Source of the DNA: Aliiroseovarius marinus
Lineage (GTDB): Bacteria; Pseudomonadota; Alphaproteobacteria; Rhodobacterales; Rhodobacteraceae
Direction of reading: 5' to 3'
DNA length: 64,000 bases
Assembly (NCBI RefSeq): GCF_004360145.1
Contig: NZ_ML178714.1
Coordinates: 79,474 to 143,473 of the forward strand
In this document: positions 20,984 to 31,229 of the stretch, one piece after another
Layout: the number at the start of each line of letters is the position of its first letter
Numbering within the stretch: the first letter of the stretch is position 1
Translations under genes and position numbers: made by a program
Notes under the pieces: model-generated
Databases searched by the model: none
What the model saw: only the letters and a program-made list of their open reading frames with translations
Told to the model about the DNA's origin: nothing

Positions 20984-21015
20984 CGCACCCGTATCGAATG
21001 TGGCCTGTATCAGCA

Positions 21016-21444
21016 TCACCAGTGCCCGGAGTTTTCCATGCTGGCCCACGGCTCCTGCGCGGGCAGGGCGCCCCCGGCCTGCAGCAGCTCGACTGAAACA
21101 TTGTCCGGCGAGCGTACAAACGCCATGCGTCCATCGCGGGGGGGACGATTGATGACAACGCCGTTGTCTTGCAGATGCTGGCACGTGGCGTAAATATCAT
21201 CGACTTCGTAGGCCAGGTGACCAAAGTGACGGCTGTCAGACGGCAGCCCGTCATCGCCATCCCAGTTATAGGTCAATTCGACCGGGCAGTCGGGTTGCTC
21301 TGGGGGCGCCATGAAGATCAGCGAATACCGACCGGCTTCGTCATCTCGCCGCTTGGTTTCTACCAGTCCCAGCAGTGCATAAAACCGCATACTGGCCTCA
21401 AGGTCTTTCACCCGGACCATGGTGTGCAAATAGCGAAGTCCCAT
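21016..21444 (-). CDS. gloA: Glyoxalase I (lactoylglutathione lyase) / VOC protein
   Basis: Converts the hemithioacetal of methylglyoxal and glutathione to S-lactoylglutathione. The 142-residue VOC protein begins [22 protein letters not shown], with the first metal His and the substrate Arg. It has [23 protein letters not shown] with the second His, and SVELLQ with the final metal Glu. This is the glyoxalase I motif set. GGAGAG precedes the ATG. It leads a two-gene unit with the DUF1194 gene. Confidence 0.85.
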
Positions 21445-21597
21445 GTGTATCTCTCCAATTCAGGCGCAAGTGTTTGCGCCACCTTAGCATTGTCGCGCCG
21501 AAGGGAAAGGCGTGACATATTTTCCGTCATATCGCTGTTGGGCGGACGCCCGCACCTAGATATAGTGGCCGGGCATCCAACACACGAGAGATTCGTC

Positions 21598-22509
21598 ATG
21601 TCATTGAGCCCCGAGCAGATCCAGGAAATCGAAGAGCAACGCGCCCAGACCGGCACCACCCGCCGCGCCATCAGCGACGGGATGGAGAAACACCTCTATA
21701 CCGCGCATGAAGTGCTGGACCACGGCTTTGTCCGCGTGATCGATTATATGGGCGATGACGCCGCGATCTGTCAGGCCGCGCGGGTGTCTTACGGCAAGGG
21801 CACCAAATCGGTGCAGAACGACGAAGGGCTGATCCGCTATCTGATGCGCCACTGGCACTCGACCCCGTTCGAGATGTGCGAGATCAAGCTGCACGTCAAA
21901 CTGCCGGTCTTCGTGGCGCGCCAGTGGATCCGTCACCGGACCGCGAATGTGAACGAATACTCGGCCCGCTATTCGATCCTCGACCGCGAGTTCTATATCC
22001 CTGCGCCCGAACACATCGCTGCGCAATCGGTGGTGAACAATCAGGGGCGTGGCGCGACGCTGCAGGGCGAGGAAGCCGCCCGCGTGCTGGAGATCCTGAA
22101 GGCCGACAGCAACCGCGCCTATGATCACTATGAACAGATGATCTCGGACGAGGGGCAGGACGGTCTGGCCCGCGAACTGGCCCGCATGAACCTGCCCGCC
22201 AACATCTATACCCAATGGTACTGGAAAGTGGACCTGCACAACCTGTTCCACTTCCTACGCCTGCGCGCCGACCACCACGCCCAATACGAAATCCGCGTCT
22301 ATGCGGACGCGATCTGCAAGGTCGTCGCCGATTGGGTTCCCGCTGCATACGGCGCGTTCGAGGATTATCGTCTGGGCGGTGCCAATCTGTCCGGCCGCGC
22401 CATGGACTGCATCCGCCGGATGCTGAAAGGTGAGGAAGTTACGCAGGAGAACTCGGGCATGTCGAAGGGCGAATGGCGCGAGTTTGAGGCGGAGTTGAAA
22501 GCGGACTGA
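21598..22509 (+). CDS. thyX: Flavin-dependent thymidylate synthase
   Basis: Makes dTMP from dUMP using methylenetetrahydrofolate, FAD and NADPH. The ThyX signature [14 protein letters not shown] is present, preceded by [29 protein letters not shown] and [13 protein letters not shown] match the remaining family motifs. Length (303 residues) is usual for the alphaproteobacterial form, which carries an N-terminal extension. The ATG at 21598 is chosen because homology starts there; the longer upstream frame overlaps gloA. The next gene overlaps its stop by one base. Confidence 0.95.
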
Positions 22510-23198
22510 TGGAGATTAATCTCGGGGTCTTTGACTGGGGTAGTGTTGCTGCACTGTCCTCGATCGTCATCGCGATCTTGGGGTTTGTCATCAACCACCG
22601 GCTCCATGAAATCTCTCGCCGGTCTGGGCGACATGAGCATCTGGCCGAGTTTCGCAAAGAAATAACGGCCTTTTCTGCCGATTTTTTGACCGCAGCATCT
22701 GAGGCGCAGGCCTTTGCCCAGTGTATTGGTCAGGGTGTTGTGGATGTTGATGAGGCTCGCAAGAAGGCTGCGCAATTGTCAGCACTTGTGGATCGTGGAC
22801 GGTTCCTGTTTCCGAACTATCTTCACGAAGATGATCGTCACGGGGCCGAAAAAGGCCCTGCTTTCGAGGGGTATCGCCGCGAGCCGTTGGATGCGATCAT
22901 GGCAGCCTATTTTGCGATGGAAAGCATCGCGCGCCCGGATGAAGCCGACCGGTTTCTTTGGAGGTCTTATCGCGAGCTGGTTCGGGCGGGTCAGCCCCAG
23001 AAGGATGATTTCAACAGGTTGGATCCGGCGTCGTGTATTTTTGAAGCGCGTCGCAGTTTCTTGAACTCGGTTGTGCCGAGCACGTTCCCGCGGGAATGGC
23101 GGACTTCTTTCTCGCGATTGTTGGGGCCGGTTGAGCCTCTGTCTGACAGCGAGCTTGATGAGCGTATCAACGCCACGCGAGAGGCTAAGAAGGACTAG
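22509..23198 (+). CDS. Membrane-anchored hypothetical protein
   Basis: A 229-residue protein that I do not recognise. One N-terminal transmembrane helix (VAALSSIVIAILGFVINH, residues 13-30) is followed by a basic, then mainly helical cytoplasmic part (HEISRRSGRHEHLAEFRKEI). Its ATG overlaps the thyX stop (TGATG), which suggests coupled translation. Base composition is slightly lower in G+C than its neighbours, which may hint at an accessory gene. No catalytic motif is evident. Confidence 0.65.
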   Translation: MEINLGVFDWGSVAALSSIVIAILGFVINHRLHEISRRSGRHEHLAEFRKEITAFSADFLTAASEAQAFAQCIGQGVVDVDEARKKAAQLSALVDRGRFLFPNYLHEDDRHGAEKGPAFEGYRREPLDAIMAAYFAMESIARPDEADRFLWRSYRELVRAGQPQKDDFNRLDPASCIFEARRSFLNSVVPSTFPREWRTSFSRLLGPVEPLSDSELDERINATREAKKD

Positions 23199-23199
23199 C

Positions 23200-23269
23200 C
23201 CGTGCCGCGCACGGGCAGCGCCCGACCTCCCCCACGGGAGGGCGCTTCGCACCCACCCGAGGTCGGGCG
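23200..23269. repeat. Hairpin-rich intergenic sequence with 11-bp inverted arms
   Basis: CGCCCGACCTC (23219-23229) is inverted at 23259-23269 as GAGGTCGGGCG, with an inner CTCCC/GGGAG pairing. A smaller hairpin, CCGTG-CCGCG-CACGG, lies just left of it at about 23200-23214. It follows the membrane-anchored protein gene. Possibly a dispersed palindromic repeat. Confidence 0.5.
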
Positions 23270-23324
23270 ATGCCCTCAGCGAACTTGGTGCTAGACAGGC
23301 ATTGCATCCGCACCCCACAAAAAC

Positions 23325-23353
23325 AAAACCCCGCAGCAATCGCCGCGGGGTTT
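23325..23353. terminator. Bidirectional intrinsic terminator before cspA
   Basis: AAAACCCCGC pairs with GCGGGGTTT around a 10-base loop. It lies between converging genes and could serve both. Confidence 0.8.
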
Positions 23354-23379
23354 CGCAATTCTATACGGTGAAGACTAAT

Positions 23380-23598
23380 TTAGCCCTGTACCTCAAGATC
23401 AACCGCCGACTGGCGACCGTCGCGACCCTCTTGCAGGTCGTAGGCAACCTTGGTGTTGTCGGCCAGACCGGTCAGGCCCGAACGCTCAACAGCCGAGATG
23501 TGTACAAACACATCTTTGCCGCCGTTATCGGGGGCGATGAAGCCATAGCCTTTGGTGGTGTTGAACCATTTTACGGTGCCGGTTTGTTTATCGGACAT
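23380..23598 (-). CDS. cspA: Cold-shock protein
   Basis: A 72-residue single-domain nucleic-acid chaperone. RNP1 is KGYGFIAP and RNP2 is DVFVHISAV, both intact; TGTVKWFNTTKG is the usual opening strand. The start at 23598 follows GGAGAAGCGGAT. Two successive acidic stretches are typical of alphaproteobacterial Csps. The 5' untranslated region may be long, as for other csp genes, but I cannot show this. Which member (CspA, CspE or other) it corresponds to is not decidable. Confidence 0.92.
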   Translation of the reverse strand: MSDKQTGTVKWFNTTKGYGFIAPDNGGKDVFVHISAVERSGLTGLADNTKVAYDLQEGRDGRQSAVDLEVQG

Positions 23599-23862
23599 AT
23601 CCGCTTCTCCTTTGTTTAACCCTGCATCTTGCGGGCTTTCGTTTGCAATCAGGTATCGTCCGACTGCATGAAAGGAGGCGGTAGATAGTTCTGTCTTACC
23701 CGTCCCAATGTGGGTACGGCGCGGCAAATTGCAAGGGAAACCTTTGCGATGCCGGGTTTGCAGCGGGTCTCTGCGTCCTTTCGTTTCGCGCCGATTACGG
23801 TCATAACAGGCGCTGGCGGCACATTGGGCGGGCCGCGTGACAGGAATATGACAGGGGGCGAA

Positions 23863-24198
23863 ATGCGCATCTGGGGACTGAAAAACTGTGACACCTGCCG
23901 GAAGGCTGTGAAGGCGTTGGAGGCGGCTGGACAGGCGCTGGAATACGTAGACGTGCGTGCCGATGGGGTGGACGCCGCTGATCTGGAGCGGTTTTACGCG
24001 GCTTTTGGGGAGGCTCTGGTCAACAAGCGCTCGACCACGTGGCGGGGCTTGTCCGAGGGTGAGCGGGCAGGCGAACCGGTTGCCCTGTTGGCCCAGCACC
24101 CCACGCTGATGAAGCGCCCGGTGATCGAGGCAGACGGTGCGTTGACGCTGGGTTGGGACGCAAAAACGCAGGCGCAGTGGTTGGAGACCGGCGCCTGA
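23863..24198 (+). CDS. ArsC/Spx-like thioredoxin-fold protein
   Basis: A 111-residue protein of the arsenate reductase ArsC/Spx/YffB family. MRIWGLKNCDTCRKAVKALE carries a CxxC (Cys10 and Cys13 by count from the chosen start), and the family ending contains PTLMKRPVIEADG with the substrate Arg. YffB-type members with this layout often lack proven arsenate reductase activity, and no ars genes are nearby. The start ATG at 23863 has AGGGGGCG upstream. An in-frame ATG at 23848 is a less likely alternative. Confidence 0.8.
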   Translation: MRIWGLKNCDTCRKAVKALEAAGQALEYVDVRADGVDAADLERFYAAFGEALVNKRSTTWRGLSEGERAGEPVALLAQHPTLMKRPVIEADGALTLGWDAKTQAQWLETGA

Positions 24199-24233
24199 TC
24201 CCCTATCTGGGATGAAAGAGCAGGAGAAATGTG

Positions 24234-24590
24234 ATGCGTAATGCCGCGTTGGTTTTGGGTGTGATTGCTGGTGTTTTGGGCATGATCGTCGGATTTTTTG
24301 GATATGGATACACGGAAGTGATCGACCGGTTCGGCGAGCTTCCGGACTTGGCCGAGCAGGTCGAACATCCCGGTCGCGTGCGGGCCTTTGCCCTGATCGC
24401 ACCGCTTCTGGCACTTGCCGGTGGTGCGATGGCGCGCTCGGTGGCGCAGATTGGGGGCGCGCTGATGTTGGCCTCGGCTGCGGGGATGTATTTTGCCTTT
24501 GGTTATGGTGTCTTCACCATGTTCCCGATTGCGCTGGCCGGATTGGGCGGGCTTTTGGCGCTGGCGGCGGTGAAGCCGGATCCGCATTAA
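24234..24590 (+). CDS. Small integral membrane protein
   Basis: A 118-residue hydrophobic protein with four likely transmembrane helices: residues about 4-24, 50-66, 68-84 and 93-111. Between the first two is a polar loop, TEVIDRFGELPDLAEQVEHPG. I do not recognise the family. AGGAG lies 7 bases before the ATG at 24234. It follows the ArsC-like gene by 35 bases and ends in a shared terminator. Confidence 0.7.
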   Translation: MRNAALVLGVIAGVLGMIVGFFGYGYTEVIDRFGELPDLAEQVEHPGRVRAFALIAPLLALAGGAMARSVAQIGGALMLASAAGMYFAFGYGVFTMFPIALAGLGGLLALAAVKPDPH

Positions 24591-24605
24591 TCGGGCGCCC
24601 AAAAA

Positions 24606-24632
24606 GAAAGAGCACCCGCAAGGGTGCCCTTT
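24606..24632. terminator. Intrinsic terminator between converging genes
   Basis: GCACCC-GCAA-GGGTGC stem (24612-24627) flanked by A-rich and CTTT sequence. It probably ends both the small membrane protein gene and the bufferin operon. Confidence 0.7.
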
Positions 24633-24655
24633 CAGGGACTTTACTCAGACACTGG

Positions 24656-25204
24656 TTACTTGAGCTTCAGCAGTCGGTCCACCGACAGCGATCCTGCGCC
24701 TTTCAGGACGGGGATCAGAAGGATGACGACCCAAAACAGGCGTTGATCCAGAATAAGGCTGTCGGGAATGCGGTCGAACCACGCGCCGAGGGTTTCGGCA
24801 TGTTGGATGCCTCCGTGGCCAAAAAGATCGGTCAGGCTTTGGACGATGACGAAGCCGATCATGCCCAACGAGGCCAGCCGGGTGAACAGCCCGATCACGA
24901 TCAAAAGCGGCAGGATGAACTCGGCCACGGTGCCAGCGAAGACAACGGCCCAGTGGAAGAAGGACAGGTCGCCCACATTATAGCTGACGGCCTCCATCGC
25001 TTTGGGAAAGATCTGCGCGTAGGCGCCCAGCGATGGCTTGAAAATGCCGAAAATGCCGGGGCCGACCTTGGTCAGGGCAGACGCCCAGAAATAGCCAAGT
25101 AGCGTCGCGGCAAAGGTGAAGCGTGCCAGTAAGGGCAGCACCTCGGGGGCGGCGCGGTCGGCCAGTCCGGCCAGCCGGTTGTGAATGTTCACCAAGGCTT
25201 GCAT
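24656..25204 (-). CDS. DoxX family membrane protein of the bufferin operon
   Basis: A 182-residue inner-membrane protein with four hydrophobic helices. FTFAATLLGYFWASALTKVGPG and FHWAVVFAGTVAEFILPLLIVIGLFTRLASLGM are the DoxX-typical segments. DoxX proteins often accompany MNIO/bufferin clusters, but their role there is not settled. GAAGGAAGG precedes the ATG. It is the last gene of the operon bufA-bufB-bufC-doxX; the gap to bufC is only 21 bases. Confidence 0.85.
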   Translation of the reverse strand: MQALVNIHNRLAGLADRAAPEVLPLLARFTFAATLLGYFWASALTKVGPGIFGIFKPSLGAYAQIFPKAMEAVSYNVGDLSFFHWAVVFAGTVAEFILPLLIVIGLFTRLASLGMIGFVIVQSLTDLFGHGGIQHAETLGAWFDRIPDSLILDQRLFWVVILLIPVLKGAGSLSVDRLLKLK

Positions 25205-25225
25205 GGTGTGTCCTTCCTTCTTCTA

Positions 25226-26011
25226 TTATGCCCGGTCTATGCCGGTTATTGCTTGCGCCGCGATCAGAACGGTCAGTGTGGCAGTCAGGTCGAAATCCGG
25301 GGTGTTGGACGTGGCCAATCCCAGAGTCGTGCCAAAACTGCGCCCCTTCAACAGCGACGAGATGAACTCGGCCGCGCCTTCCGGCAGCAAAAAGGTCTTC
25401 GGCTCGTACCCTATGCGCGAGATCAGGATGTCTTCGCCGCCTGCACTGGGTTGCGGGCCGTCTGCCATGTTGAAATCCCAGATGGATTTGGCGGGCCATT
25501 TGGCTTGCAGCACCTCACAGGCGGGGGCCAGCGTCAGATGGGCCTCCATCAACTCGTGCTGGCCAAGGGTAGTCAGCTCGGCCGGGTCAATCGGGTCTGC
25601 GTCGCCCGCGTGATAAGCGCGGCGCAGGGCCAGTTCCAAGCGGGCCACGTCGGGCAGATACTTCAGGTGCAACGTGCCGGGGAAGCTTTCCAGAAAGCCG
25701 GGCAGGGCCGCGCCGTAATGCATCATCAGTTGCGAGGCCGGCGGGTGGATGCGCAGATAGACCTTGGCCATCTCGCGGAAGAATTCTTCGCCCAACAGCT
25801 TGGTCAGCACCGGGAAGCCCGTCAGCATCGCCTCGGACAGGCTGTGCACCACGTTGTTGCGATAGACCGAAAAGCGCTTGGAGGCCTGCTGGCCATCGGG
25901 ATTGACCAGCCCCTCGGGCACATCGGCTTGTGCGTTCAGGATCGCGGCGCGGAATTCGGCCTGGGATACGGTGGCGCGGGCGGGCGCTTGGGGCAGTGTG
26001 TCTTGGGTCAT
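25226..26011 (-). CDS. bufC: BufC/HvfC-type peptide-modification partner (DUF2063)
   Basis: A 261-residue protein that in known systems binds the precursor and presents it to the MNIO enzyme. The N-terminal DUF2063 region is recognised from FRAAILNAQADVPEG and ASKRFSVYRNNVVHSLSEAMLTGFPVLTKLLGEEFF. Next comes HPPASQLMMHYGAALPGFLESFPG, also family-typical. The C-terminal half looks like a winged/RRE-like domain. Its ATG overlaps the bufB stop by 4 bases, so translation is coupled. The name assignment rests on sequence pattern plus operon context. Confidence 0.88.
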   Translation of the reverse strand: MTQDTLPQAPARATVSQAEFRAAILNAQADVPEGLVNPDGQQASKRFSVYRNNVVHSLSEAMLTGFPVLTKLLGEEFFREMAKVYLRIHPPASQLMMHYGAALPGFLESFPGTLHLKYLPDVARLELALRRAYHAGDADPIDPAELTTLGQHELMEAHLTLAPACEVLQAKWPAKSIWDFNMADGPQPSAGGEDILISRIGYEPKTFLLPEGAAEFISSLLKGRSFGTTLGLATSNTPDFDLTATLTVLIAAQAITGIDRA

Positions 26012-26886
26012 GCGGACACCATCAGGCTTTGTCCTGCGACAACGGCCTCCATCTGCGCGGTGGCGCGGGCGGCTTCGCTTTCCAAGATTTCCCAGTCGGG
26101 CACGTCATTGTCCCATTCGATCAGCGCAGGGCGCGCACCGGTGCGGGCAATGACGTGGTCAAACAGCGCCCAGACGGGCTCGTCCACTGGTTTGCCGTGG
26201 CTGTCGATCAGAAGCTTGCGGCCAAGTTCGTCCGCGTCTTCGTCGTGGCCGGCAAGGTGGATTTCCTCGACCAATTCCAGCGGGTAGGCGTCCAGATAGT
26301 CCAGTGCCTCAAACTCCAGATTGGTGGCCGAGATGAAGACGTTGTTCACGTCCAACAGTAGGCCACAACCAGTGCGGCGGGCGACTTCACGGATGAAGTC
26401 GGGCTCGGACCAGGTGCTTTCCGCGAAGGCCAAGTACGAAGACGGATTTTCAAGCAGCATCTTGCGGCCCAACAGGTCCTGCACTTCGTTAATATGCGCA
26501 GTGACGCGGGTCAGCGTGTCCTTGGTGTAGGGCAGGGGCAGCAGGTCGTTCAGGAACGCGCTGTCATGGGTCGACCATGCCAGATGTTCCGAGAAACTGG
26601 CCGGGTTCAGCCAATCCACCAGCTTTTTCAAACGCGCCAGATGTTCGGGGTCCAGTCGGGTTTCGCCGCCGATCGAGGCGCCCACACCGTGGACAGAAAT
26701 CGGGAAATGATCGGCCAGATGGCGCAGCTGCGCGATCTGACGTCCACCGTCGCCCATATAGTTCTCGGCGTGGATTTCCAGCCAGGTGACAGCACCGGGC
26801 GCGTTTAGAAGGTCTTGGAAATGCTGCGGTTTGTATCCAACGCCAGCGCCATCGGGAAGCGTTGTGGTATTGCGTTGGTTCAGCAT
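26008..26886 (-). CDS. bufB: MNIO (DUF692) multinuclear iron oxidase for bufferin maturation
   Basis: A 292-residue TIM-barrel iron enzyme. In described bufferin systems the MNIO converts core-peptide cysteines to thiooxazole-type groups. Visible metal-site segments are GAGVGYKPQHF, WLEIHAENYMGDGG, ISVHGVGASIGG, FSEHLAW, LLENPSSY, LLLDVNNVFI, EEIHLAGHDED and IEWDNDVP, which supply the His, Asp and Glu ligands expected of the family. It lies between the precursor and the partner gene, as expected. A GAAGGG precedes the ATG. Confidence 0.93.
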   Translation of the reverse strand: MLNQRNTTTLPDGAGVGYKPQHFQDLLNAPGAVTWLEIHAENYMGDGGRQIAQLRHLADHFPISVHGVGASIGGETRLDPEHLARLKKLVDWLNPASFSEHLAWSTHDSAFLNDLLPLPYTKDTLTRVTAHINEVQDLLGRKMLLENPSSYLAFAESTWSEPDFIREVARRTGCGLLLDVNNVFISATNLEFEALDYLDAYPLELVEEIHLAGHDEDADELGRKLLIDSHGKPVDEPVWALFDHVIARTGARPALIEWDNDVPDWEILESEAARATAQMEAVVAGQSLMVSA

Positions 26887-26981
26887 GTCAAAGCCCTTCG
26901 TGTTTTTCTTTGTTGGGTCGCTCTGGCCAAGCGAGGATGGCCAGAGCGGTTTTATGGGGACTAGTCAGAAATCCGTCCGGA

Positions 26982-27275
26982 TTAGCTGGGCAGGTTCATT
27001 TCGGTTGCGGTCAGCGAACCTTTGTGAACTTTGCCGTCTGCGCCAGTGATTTCCATGGTTTCGCAGGTGCCAGCCGGAACCAGTTTCCAAGCGTTGCCCT
27101 GATAATCAACGGTCGACGAACCGGCGCAGGTGGTGCCGGGGCCAGCTGCACAGTCATTCTGGCCTGCCAGCGACACGCCGAAGCATTTTTCATTGTCTTC
27201 AGCAAAAGCCGGGGCAGCGTTGGCAGCTACAGCAGCGGTGACAGCGCCCAGGATGGCTACAGTTTTCTTCGACAT
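26982..27275 (-). CDS. bufA: Bufferin-type precursor peptide (DUF2282)
   Basis: A 97-residue precursor with a Sec signal [20 protein letters not shown] and likely cleavage after AFA25. The mature peptide has four cysteines at residues 31, 42, 50 and 71, in the DUF2282 pattern EKCFGV[17 protein letters not shown]...[19 protein letters not shown]. Bufferins are periplasmic RiPP-type peptides that bind copper after MNIO modification. The tail after Cys71 is about 26 residues. It leads the operon with bufB and bufC. GAAAGGAAA precedes the ATG at 27275. Confidence 0.9.
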
Positions 27276-27689
27276 CGTATTTCCTTTCGGGTTTGTAATT
27301 CGTTCCGCTTCGAGGCGGTGAGGAAAAGTTAGGCTGGGAAATTGGCGGTCTCCACTCACGAAAACGTGGATCACGGGCCTGTCAGGTCAGCGCGAGCGGC
27401 ATATAACGCGGGCGTGAACGGCGGGGCGGACGACGGATTTGCGAAAGCCCAAGAAAACTTGCGTTTCCGCCGGGTTGGCAATTTTGCGCGGTCACAGTTC
27501 GTTACGAAAACAGCCGCCGCACGGATCACATCTTTCAGAATCTGACGCGCAGATTTTTGTAATGTTACAACTTTCTGCGCTGCGGCAGGGGGGGTCTCAC
27601 GTGTTTTGTGAGCCCGTGTAACAGCCCTTGGGCACAAAAAAGCGCCCTCTGACGGGGTCAAAGGGCGCTTTTGTTCAGGTTTTGGGCGA
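27276..27689. other. Intergenic region with bufferin promoter zone and thrS terminator
   Basis: This 414-base gap has no convincing gene. From right to left it holds the thrS terminator (27636-27673), about 265 bases of unremarkable sequence with a small stem CTCAC/GTGAG near 27597-27612, an inverted repeat CACG-AAAA-CGTG (27357-27368) about 85 bases upstream of bufA, and the bufA leader with its GAAAGGAAA ribosome binding site. I could not identify clear -35 and -10 boxes for bufA. Confidence 0.5.
27636..27673. terminator. Intrinsic terminator after thrS
   Basis: AAAAGCGCCCT (27638-27648) pairs with AGGGCGCTTTT (27662-27672). The stem is flanked by A- and T-runs and lies just downstream of thrS on the minus strand. 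Confidence 0.88.
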
Positions 27690-29636
27690 TCAGGCCAGGT
27701 CGGGCGCGGTGGCTTCCTTGGCCAGATCCGCGGCAACCTCGTCCAGCGGCAGCACTTTCGAGTGCTTTTCGCCCAGACGACGCATCGACACGGTGCCGTC
27801 TTCGACCTCTTTCATGCCGACAGCCAGAATGACCGGAACTTTGCCGACCGAATGTTCGCGGACCTTATAGTTGATCTTCTCGTTGCGGATGTCGGCCTCG
27901 GCCCGGATGCCTTTGGCTTTCAGGGTTTCGACAACCTGATGCACATAGTCATCCGCGTCCGACACAATCGAGGCCACAACCACCTGACGCGGGGCCAGCC
28001 AGAAGGGCAGCTTGCCTGCGTGTTCTTCAATCAGGATGCCGATGAAGCGTTCGAACGAGCCCAGCGTCGCGCGGTGTAGCATGACCGGGCGGTGCTTCGC
28101 GCCGTCTTCGCCGATATAGTTGGCATCCAGACGTTCCGGTAGGAACGGGTCCACCTGAAGCGTACCGCACTGCCAGTCACGGCCAATCGCGTCGGTCAGG
28201 GTGAACTCGAGCTTCGGACCATAGAACGCGCCTTCGCCTTCGAGGATCTCGTACTCGTAGCCCGCCGCATTACAGGCATCCCCAAGCGCCTTTTCCACGC
28301 GGTCCCAGCTTTCATCTTCACCGATGCGCTTTTCCGGACGGGTGGACAGCTTGATGGTCCAGTTGTGGAAGCCCAGATCGGCATAAACCTTGGACAGGAA
28401 CTCGATGAAACGCGCGGTTTCGTCGGTGATCTGATCTTCGGTACAGAAGATGTGCCCATCATCCTGCGTAAACCCACGTACCCGCATGATCCCATGCAGA
28501 GCACCCGAAGGTTCGTAGCGTGCACAGGACCCGAACTCGGCCATGCGCAGGGGCAGGTCGCGATAGGATTTCAGACCTTGATTGAACACCTGCACGTGGC
28601 AGGGGCAGTTCATTGGTTTCAGGGCGTTCACTGCCTTTTCGCGGGCGTGATCTTCGTCCACCTCAACGATGAACATGTTTTCCTGATACTTGTCCCAGTG
28701 ACCCGAGGCGATCCACAATTTGCGGTCCACCACTTGCGGCGTGTTCACCTCGACATAGCCACCCTTGCGTTGCTGGCGGCGCATGTAGTCCTGAAGTTCA
28801 GTATAGATGGTCCAGCCGTTGGGGTGCCAGAACACCTGACCGGGGGCTTCTTCCTGCATATGGAACAGGTTCATTTCCTTGCCCAGCTTGCGGTGGTCGC
28901 GCTTGGCGGCCTCTTCCAGCATGTGCAGGTGCTTTTTCAGGCCCTCTTTGTTCTGGAAGGCCACACCATAGATACGCTGAAGCATGGCACGGTCGCTATC
29001 TCCACGCCAGTACGCCCCGGCCACGCTCATCAGTTTGAACGCGTCGGCGGGCAGCTGGCCCGTGTGCTGCAGGTGCGGACCACGGCAGAGATCCTGCCAA
29101 TGACCGTGCCAATACATGCGCAGCGGCTCGTCGCCCGGAATGGCTTCGATCAGCTCGACCTTATAAGGTTCGTTGTTGGCCTGATAGAATTTCACCGCGC
29201 GGTCACGTTCCCAGATCTCGGTCGTGACGGGGTCGCGCTTGTTGATGAGTTCTTTCATCTTGGCTTCAATCGCGCCCAGATCTTCCGGCGTGAACGGCTC
29301 TTCCCGGTCGAAGTCATAATACCAGCCGTTGTCGATGACCGGGCCGATGGTGACTTTGACGTCCGGCCAGATCTCTTGCACGGCACGCGCCATCACGTGG
29401 GCAAAGTCGTGGCGGATCAGTTCCAGTGCCTGATCGGGATCTTTCATCGTGTGAATGGCGATCTCGGCATTGTCGGTGATCGGCCATTGCAGGTCCCAAT
29501 GGGCCCCGTTCACAGTGGCGGAAATGGCCTTCTTGGCCAGCGAGTTGGAAATGCTGGCAGCGACCTCGGCTGGGGTTACACCTGCGTCATACGCGCGTGC
29601 ATTGCCATCGGGAAATGTAAGGGAAATCTGGCTCAT
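27690..29636 (-). CDS. thrS: Threonine--tRNA ligase
   Basis: Charges tRNA-Thr. The 648-residue class II enzyme has the TGS domain at residues 1-60, the second additional editing domain ([12 protein letters not shown] and a later [12 protein letters not shown], with the HxxxH and C/H metal-type residues), the catalytic core with zinc ligands in [10 protein letters not shown] and [10 protein letters not shown], and the anticodon-binding domain from about 540 ([11 protein letters not shown]). The ATG at 29636 starts [12 protein letters not shown], where homology begins. Confidence 0.96.
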
Positions 29637-29797
29637 CGGCCTAGCTCCTCGTCGTTTTGGCGCCCACGGAACGCCCGGTTGCGGGTTATGTCTGCGCGAG
29701 TTTTTACCTGCGCGCGTCGCGAAGTCAACGGCGGCAATCCGAAAATCGGCTTGCATTCACGAGGGGCGGGGGCAAGATGCGGGTCAGGAGGGGCCGC

Positions 29798-30466
29798 ATG
29801 CGGAAATTTGACGACATTCTGATGATGGCGGTCGAACGCAAAGGCTCGTTCGGGGCGGTGTTGGGCGACATTCCAGAGCCTGCCTCTGCCGATGAATTGG
29901 CCGCAACGGAAAACAGCGAATGGCTGGCCTGTTTTGCCAAGGGGATCTTTCAGGCAGGTCTGGCGTGGCAAGTGATTGTCAACAAATGGGATGGCATCGA
30001 AGAGGCGTTCCATGGGTTCGACATTGGCCGCTGTGCGATGATGTCCGAGGAATGGTTTGACGCATTGCTGGCCGACACGCGTGTTATTCGAAGCGCGCCC
30101 AAGATCCGATCCATCCAAGAGAACGCCGTGTTCATTCAGTCTGTCGCGGATGAGGCCGGCAGCTTCGGGCGGAAGGTCGGCGACTGGCCTGCGGACGACT
30201 ATTTCGGGTTGCTCGATTGGCTGAAATCCAACGGTTCCCGGCTGGGTGGCAATACCGGCGCCTATGCGCTTCGTCGGATGGGGCGCGATGGGTTCATGAT
30301 GACGCGGGACGTGGTGGCGCGGTTGGTGGCCGAGGGGGTGATCGACAAGGCGCCGACCTCGAAAGTGGCCAAAGCGGCTGTGCAGGACGCGTTCAACACA
30401 TGGCACGAAGAAAGCGGGCGCAGCTTCACCGAAATCTCGCGCGTTTTAGCATATAGTATCGACTAA
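29798..30466 (+). CDS. DNA-3-methyladenine glycosylase I (Tag-like, divergent)
   Basis: Would excise 3-methyladenine from alkylated DNA. The 222-residue protein has the helix-hairpin-helix core pattern of the family: SEWLACFAKGIFQAGLAWQVIVNKWDGIEEAFHGFD, then RNxxKIRSIQENA-type sequence (SAPKIRSIQENAVF). The first Tag motif (WxxxDPLYxxYHDxEWG) is not conserved, nor is the C-terminal Cys-based zinc site, so this is a divergent subgroup. CAGGAGGGG precedes the ATG. It heads a four-gene run with the alpha/beta hydrolases. Confidence 0.75.
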   Translation: MRKFDDILMMAVERKGSFGAVLGDIPEPASADELAATENSEWLACFAKGIFQAGLAWQVIVNKWDGIEEAFHGFDIGRCAMMSEEWFDALLADTRVIRSAPKIRSIQENAVFIQSVADEAGSFGRKVGDWPADDYFGLLDWLKSNGSRLGGNTGAYALRRMGRDGFMMTRDVVARLVAEGVIDKAPTSKVAKAAVQDAFNTWHEESGRSFTEISRVLAYSID

Positions 30467-30479
30467 GAAGGATAGAGGA

Positions 30480-31229
30480 TTGACCGCATATCTCGACACG
30501 GCGCAGGGACGTCGCATTGCCTATGTGAAGACGGAAGGGCAGGGGCCCACGATTGTGTTCCTGTCTGGTCTGAAATCGGACATGGAAGGCACCAAGGCCG
30601 TCGCGCTGGAAGCCTGGGCGAAAGAGCAAGGCCGCGCGTTCCTGCGGTTTGATTATTCGGGCCACGGCGTCAGCTCGGGCACCTTTGCCGAGGGCAGCAT
30701 TGGCGATTGGCACGAGGACACGCTGGAAGTCGTGGACAAGCTGATCGACGGCCCCATTCTGGCGGTGGGCAGCTCGATGGGCGGCTGGCAGTCGCTTCTT
30801 TTGTCGCGTGCGCGGCCCGAGCGGATCATGGGGCTGGTGACCATCGCAGCCGCCCCGGATTTCACCGAGGATGGGTACTGGGCTGGGTTCACCGACGCAC
30901 AGAAAGCCGAGATGGAGCGCGAGGGCTTCCTGACGCTCCCCTCGGATTATGACGAGGATTACATCATCACCAAACGCCTGATCGAAGACGGGCGCGAGAA
31001 TTTCGTCCTGCGTTCGCCGCTGCGGTTGGATATGCCGGTGCGCTTCCTGCAGGGGACAGAAGATGACGCGGTGCCGACGTCTCAGGCCGTGAAATTGCTG
31101 GAGCATGTAGACGGCGACGACATCCGCTTGATCCTTGTGAAAGGGGCGGACCACCGGTTCTCGGATGACGAATGCCTGCGCACGATCCAGAAAATGGTCA
31201 AGGTCGTTCTGGCCCGAGGTGCAGCATGA
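30480..31229 (+). CDS. Alpha/beta hydrolase
   Basis: A 249-residue serine hydrolase. The nucleophile elbow is GSSMGG near residue 98 (VGSSMGGWQS), the oxyanion region is VFLSGLKSDM, the catalytic Asp is probably in FLQGTEDDAVP, and the catalytic His in VKGADHRFSDD. Substrate is unknown; the size and motifs resemble ABHD10-type esterases. A TTG at 30480 with AGAGGA upstream is the apparent start because no other in-frame start lies close. Its stop overlaps the next gene (ATGA). Confidence 0.85.
   Translation: MTAYLDTAQGRRIAYVKTEGQGPTIVFLSGLKSDMEGTKAVALEAWAKEQGRAFLRFDYSGHGVSSGTFAEGSIGDWHEDTLEVVDKLIDGPILAVGSSMGGWQSLLLSRARPERIMGLVTIAAAPDFTEDGYWAGFTDAQKAEMEREGFLTLPSDYDEDYIITKRLIEDGRENFVLRSPLRLDMPVRFLQGTEDDAVPTSQAVKLLEHVDGDDIRLILVKGADHRFSDDECLRTIQKMVKVVLARGAA

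Follow-up and report, generated by a model that had tools for sequence, protein, structure and literature searches.

Buf1 bufferins are peptides in which the central cysteines are modified and the outer two are disulfide-bonded, and the core of the corresponding gene clusters has been described as comprising genes for the precursor, an MNIO, a DUF2063 protein and a DoxX protein, with further conserved genes being very rare and with SigF/NrsF accompanying only some of the clusters (PMC12452194). In Caulobacter, the homologous operon (CC3254-CC3257; CCNA_03363-03366) is controlled by SigF/NrsF, as is a cluster for methionine sulfoxide repair of the MsrPQ type (PMC3511200; PMC8224329), and has been reported to respond to copper and to be linked by SigF to methionine sulfoxide repair (PMC8224329). 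DUF2282 precursors, the type encoded by the locus considered here, also constitute one of three precursor groups in the account of the captophorins, which are thiooxazole metallophores (PMC13097082). However, the worked examples given there are EGKCG-repeat peptides, whereas the modification of the present peptide is predicted.

The locus that we analyzed in Aliiroseovarius marinus lies in a stretch of 64,000 nucleotides, referred to as a whole as the window, and represents a bufferin operon of the Buf1 type, one more locus in a large known class. It shares with the described Buf1 clusters a DUF2282 precursor with four cysteines, the MNIO, the DUF2063 partner and DoxX (PMC12452194), and with the Caulobacter operon the same four-gene order (PMC3511200; PMC8224329). 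In contrast to the Caulobacter operon and to some of the Buf1 clusters, a SigF-based profile revealed no SigF-like gene within positions 21001-31000 of the window, in agreement with the absence of an adjacent sigma or anti-sigma factor noted in an initial annotation, the genome gave no match to NrsF in a search that recovered the Caulobacter control, and the operon is preceded by another motif. The less expected part of the locus is this upstream DNA motif together with an internal RNA hairpin, both of which are common to most of the relatives examined. Neither element was found described in the literature among the matches listed; the word hairpin is absent from the main texts of both main papers, and promoter, operator and mRNA do not occur in the main text of PMC12452194 either. 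We consider it very probable that the locus as a whole is best explained as a Buf1 operon with the peptide chemistry and copper role of its relatives, a factor acting at the motif and a function of the hairpin. The features are as follows:

24606-24633, minus strand: terminator-like hairpin with T-tract 3' of bufD, from a terminator scan
24656-25204, minus strand: bufD (doxX), 182-aa DoxX-family membrane protein
25226-26011, minus strand: bufC, 261-aa DUF2063 partner protein
26008-26886, minus strand: bufB, 292-aa MNIO maturase (DUF692, PF05114)
26919-26948, minus strand: intercistronic hairpin in the bufA/bufB gap, unbroken 11-bp stem and 8-nt loop
26982-27275, minus strand: bufA, 97-aa bufferin precursor (DUF2282) with Cys 31, 42, 50 and 71
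27356-27375, minus strand: upstream motif CGTGA-N2-CACG-N4-CGTGA (possible operator), 81-100 nt 5' of the bufA ATG
27636-27671, minus strand: terminator-like inverted repeat with T-tract 3' of thrS, found by eye and missed by the terminator scan

Gene Content and Predicted Peptide Chemistry

The four genes and their positions were confirmed as initially annotated, all on the minus strand, and their products passed the respective Pfam cut-offs, with 88.5 bits for BufA against DUF2282 (PF10048; cut-off 22.4), 343.4 bits for BufB against MbnB_TglH_ChrH (cut-off 25), 83.4 bits for BufC against DUF2063 (PF09836; cut-off 27.2) and a marginal 24.2 bits for BufD against DoxX (PF07681; cut-off 23.6). 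BufB in addition matched the NCBIfam BufB equivalog NF050167 (373.8 bits, cut-off 310) and is related by sequence to several proteins in the PDB, namely 3BWW (E 6e-41, residues 12-271 aligned in two stretches), MbnB (residues 86-267 aligned) and TglH. What counts against the explanation favored here is that BufA had no match in the NCBIfam search and that BufC and BufD remained far under the cut-offs of the HvfC model (34.2 versus 142) and the HvfX model (24.2 versus 80), respectively, as well as the narrow margin of DoxX over its Pfam cut-off. A sequence search of the PDB with BufC up to E 1 returned a sole, unrelated match (E 0.086). An AlphaFold model of BufC built from 36 sequences (mean pLDDT 92.8) had three fold matches with E below 0.001, 8hi7_A and 8hci_A from the TglHI complex and 3dee (NGO1945), with E-values from 4e-06 to 5e-05 and TM-scores by query length of 0.53-0.57. 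Chain A of 8hi7 and 8hci presumably represents the partner TglI, since chain D is listed as the DUF692 protein, and both NGO1945 and TglI are named as MNIO partner proteins (PMC12452194). The model thus gives BufC an MNIO-partner fold.

In an alignment of 129 BufA sequences (the window, 19 from the genus and 109 from the family, i.e. the Roseobacter group and kin), Cys 31, 42, 50 and 71 were each invariant in 129 of 129. Based on the gene identities, the BufC fold and these invariant cysteines the locus was filed as a Buf1 bufferin operon, and gene content, order and family models likewise uphold the earlier designation as a bufferin-type operon. However, DoxX had been regarded as its only extra member, which is incorrect because the published survey places DoxX among the core genes of these clusters (PMC12452194). 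By analogy with the characterized relatives, BufA, whose N-terminus resembles a signal peptide by eye (KK, a hydrophobic stretch and AFA), would be a Sec-exported precursor, whose central Cys42 and Cys50 would be converted to thiooxazoles by BufB, a multinuclear iron enzyme acting under the guidance of its partner BufC, while the outer Cys31 and Cys71 would form a disulfide. The mature peptide would then chelate excess copper in the periplasm, and DoxX may have a linked membrane role.

The 4-base overlap between bufB and bufC that had been claimed is present at 26008-26011, and the same -4 offset was found in 54 of the 71 family loci measured; the gap from the end of bufC to doxX is 21 nt. Terminator-like elements 3' of doxX and 3' of the upstream thrS give the operon the appearance of being bounded on both sides, although the scan hit 3' of bufD is weak when taken alone, since 8 such sites were found in the region versus 5.6 expected. 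A scan for sigma-70-type promoters found none versus 1.2 expected and is not informative. Outside the operon, a sub-threshold match to the Rfam cspA thermoregulator (49.1 bits versus a gathering score of 78) at 23323-23721 on the minus strand overlies a frame whose product, judged by eye, is a cold-shock protein and whose end is at 23380.

Distribution and Neighborhood of the Operon

The 3.13-Mb genome contains one MNIO match and one DUF2282 match. Within the genus Aliiroseovarius bufA is present in 20 of 21 genomes, and DUF2282 matches were obtained in 211 of 295 family genomes, from which 109 loci were drawn in E-value order. Skipped along the way were a second copy in G007 and seven genomes (G040, G078, G098, G159, G160, G210, G245), in several of which the match lies close to the end of a contig. 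One of the 109 loci (L093) lacks bufB where its contig ends. A set of named loci, comprising the best 80 of 553 by likeness to the BufB of the window, partly overlaps with the preceding set, and the set from other alphaproteobacterial families (32 rows) was taken from part of 47 matching genomes.

Among the 96 longer loci (80 from the family and 16 from the genus), 92 show the order A-B-C-D, with two of the four exceptions (L093 and L121) being cut by contig ends, and 79 have a thrS match within the stretch. The thrS-linked loci often also have DUF4064 and ArsC genes downstream in common, a neighborhood that points to an old, probably vertically kept place of the operon. A SigF-like gene occurs in 16 of the 109 family loci, none of which has a thrS match; both the SigF and the thrS counts may be low because 29 short loci have only 1.5-kb flanks. 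Two of the thrS-linked loci (L101, L104) have two tandem copies of bufA 5' of bufB, and bufA-bufB gaps that are unusually long (322-470 nt) were seen in three loci from Shimia (L273, L277, L280) and one from Phaeobacter (L274).

A Hairpin Conserved Between bufA and bufB

In the window, a 111-nt stretch spanning the bufA-bufB gap folds better than 200 of 200 shuffled sequences (z -3.9), a rank that is due to the 11-bp stem at 26919-26948. Near relatives alone say little about this hairpin, because in the window and six close relatives the only two of 11 pairs that are changed on both sides occur in one sequence, a result reached by 6 of 500 shuffles. An unbroken stem of at least 8 pairs was present in 18 of 19 other parsed loci of the genus. 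Across the family, where bufA and bufB lie on one strand in 108 of 109 loci, such stems (G-U pairs allowed) were found in 101 of the 108, with at least 10 pairs in 81, and at least four of the seven loci without one have interrupted hairpins. The 101 stems open with 91 different first 8-mers. Dinucleotide-shuffled gaps contained a stem of at least 8 pairs in 376 of 2140 cases and one of at least 10 in 66. When only gaps of 25-200 nt were considered (n = 106), 100 contained a stem of at least 8 pairs and 80 one of at least 10, versus 321 and 61 of 2120 coding windows of like length; with these two controls, shuffles and coding windows, chance was rejected as the origin of the hairpin. Among the named loci, of which 79 of 80 could be parsed, 75 had stems of at least 8 and 70 of at least 10 pairs.

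In other alphaproteobacterial families the hairpin was found in 5 of 26 distinct loci (5 of 30 rows with both genes, as the four repeated rows L178-L181, which duplicate L053, L054, L061 and L064, lack it). There is often no room for it in these families, since the gap is shorter than 25 nt in 13 of the 30 rows, and the 16 distinct loci with gaps of at least 25 nt include the five with hairpin. Within the operon, no stem of at least 8 pairs was detected in 77 bufC-bufD gaps, which constitute a weak control because only 4 of the 77 are at least 25 nt long, and the 80 nt 3' of bufD contained such a stem in 26 of 78 cases. A dispersed REP-like repeat was rejected as the identity of the hairpin, with the arm pattern occurring at one place in the 3.13 Mb, and so was a known RNA family, as the window yielded no Rfam match at gathering score and a search of 23300-27800 with relaxed settings returned none at the hairpin.

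A Conserved Motif Upstream of bufA

An alignment of the genus revealed a conserved block, CGTGATCCACGTTTTCGTGAGTGGAG, approximately 100 nt 5' of bufA. Of the 109 family upstream regions (260 nt), 63 contain the spaced word pair CACG-N5-GTGA, which did not occur in any of four rounds of shuffling. Matches at no fewer than 12 of the 14 motif bases were found in 63 of 109 family loci versus 3 of 2180 base shuffles, the copy in the window being perfect, and in 61 of 78 named loci versus 0 of 1560 shuffles. The consensus derived from the 63 good sites, TnACG-N4-CGTGA-N2-CACG-N4-CGTGA-n-TGG, extends to both sides of the middle part for which the sites had been selected, while the outer parts had not been selected for. 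The 46 family loci without a good motif count against the explanation favored here. Sorted by neighbor, the full motif is present in 56 of 75 thrS-linked, 2 of 16 SigF-linked and 5 of 18 other loci. In other families the full motif was absent from all 27 loci (1 of 540 shuffles), and the single dyad was found in 3 of 27 (4 of 540 shuffles).

Three perfect copies exist in the genome of A. marinus, one before bufA, one before msrB-msrA and one inside rpsD. A 19-base form of the motif is matched perfectly at 25 sites across 61 family genomes, compared to 2 for a reversed control, and these include 12 before bufA, one before msrB, one before a response-regulator gene and 5 inside open frames, whereas 6 share a sequence that lies inside rpsD in A. 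marinus, the genome in which the rpsD location was inspected. A wide regulon is not supported by this distribution. Weak matches are largely noise, since the genome contains 64 matches with up to two mismatches versus 29 for the reversed pattern; in the window, the 11 matches with up to three mismatches are on a par with shuffled sequences (mean 9.5).

Proposed Functions of the Hairpin and the Upstream Motif

The family stems start at a median of 10 nt 3' of bufA and end at a median of 27 nt 5' of bufB, a placement that corresponds to an mRNA 3'-end or processing element, and stem-loops at such places have been reported to set within-operon transcript ratios in Clostridium cellulolyticum (PMC4423207). 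By analogy, we read the hairpin of the family as an mRNA-end element that would protect or end a bufA-only transcript and thereby keep the precursor above the enzyme. The same outcome would result from an intrinsic terminator or attenuator that halts most transcription 3' of bufA and lets a remainder read through into bufBCD, and GC-rich stems so close behind bufA, 21 of 101 with at least 5 T in the next 10 nt, would fit this possibility; part of the hairpin set may indeed consist of weak terminators. However, the stem in the window is followed by ACCCAACAAA, which contains no T-tract, and the mean over the 101 loci is 2.9 T in 10 nt. We regard termination as somewhat unlikely. We consider very unlikely a switch like that of cutF-cutO in Rhodobacter capsulatus, where, as here, the gene for an exported Cys peptide is followed by a hairpin and then by a copper gene, and where the hairpin blocks the ribosome site of the latter (PMC9973294). 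In such a switch translation of the exported, copper-binding BufA would open the hairpin and the enzyme would be made on copper demand, but the bufB ribosome site is not covered, as none of the 101 hairpins extends to 14 nt or less from the start of bufB and that of the window ends 32 nt before it, which led to the rejection of a ribosome-site shield, and the BufA sequence has neither a proline-rich C-terminus nor a CxxxC motif.

With respect to the upstream motif, we propose that a putative DNA-binding factor acts at this site in the family, which makes the motif a possible operator. Alternatively, the motif could belong to a promoter recognized by an ECF sigma factor instead of being bound by a transcription factor, a reading that we regard as unlikely. 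In its favor are the SigF-linked loci, in which the single dyad TCACG-N4-CGTGA (at least 9 of 10 bases) is present in 14 of 16 and is closely followed, by eye, in 11 of 16 by GTAAC, which we take to resemble a SigF-type -35. Moreover, SigF controls the Caulobacter operon (PMC3511200). In contrast, the dyad is kept in 55 of 75 thrS-linked loci, mostly with no GTAAC directly behind it by eye (L144 excepted), the alternation of half-sites resembles an array bound by protein, and the genome lacks an NrsF match. It is also doubtful that the operon serves mainly against oxidative or hypochlorite stress instead of copper, as might be concluded from Haemophilus influenzae, where msrAB and a DoxX/DUF692/DUF2063 cluster are both under the control of RpoE2 upon exposure to HOCl (PMC7907618). 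The perfect copy of the motif before msrB-msrA in A. marinus (L184, 1501-1520, in reverse orientation upstream of the msrB ATG at 1581) agrees with such a function, and its dyad, TCACG-N4-CGTG, is conserved upstream of msrB in this genome and in six close relatives. However, the conservation is weak evidence because these seven are near relatives, no motif was seen in the 11 other parsed loci of the genus (7 of 18 with motif; 3 of 21 unparsed), and copper and redox stress overlap. The msrB copy thus hints that the pairing of bufferin and msr genes may exist here under another regulator, a hint given little weight because it consists of one perfect site, partial copies in six close relatives and none in 11 others. 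By eye, a SelO-like frame lies downstream of msrB-msrA.

Taken with the preferred functions of motif and hairpin, these data lead us to a tentative proposal, to which we give not quite even credence, that in the Roseobacter group and its kin the operon is a vertically kept neighbor of thrS, works without SigF/NrsF and is run by a putative dedicated regulator at a double-dyad motif located mainly before bufA, with a hairpin, kept in structure but not in sequence, fixing the surplus of precursor over enzyme. If true, the stoichiometry of a RiPP pathway would here be set by a rule encoded in RNA. With a defined 20-nt site, the question of how bufferins are controlled where SigF/NrsF are missing becomes directly testable, as does, with a defined hairpin, the question of how precursor exceeds enzyme in a single-operon RiPP pathway.

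Additional Elements Upstream of bufA

Several SigF-linked loci (e.g. L004, L024, L138) contain GTAAC within a few bases of TCACG-N4-CGTGA, perhaps reflecting a factor site beside a SigF-type promoter. In the family upstream regions, TGTAACA and GTTACA boxes are also enriched upstream of bufA, and a TGTAACA box was observed 5' of the motif in 42 of 109 regions versus 1.5 expected. In the window, the TGTAACA box forms TGTAACATTACA at 27558-27569 on the minus strand, and relatives have it at a like place.
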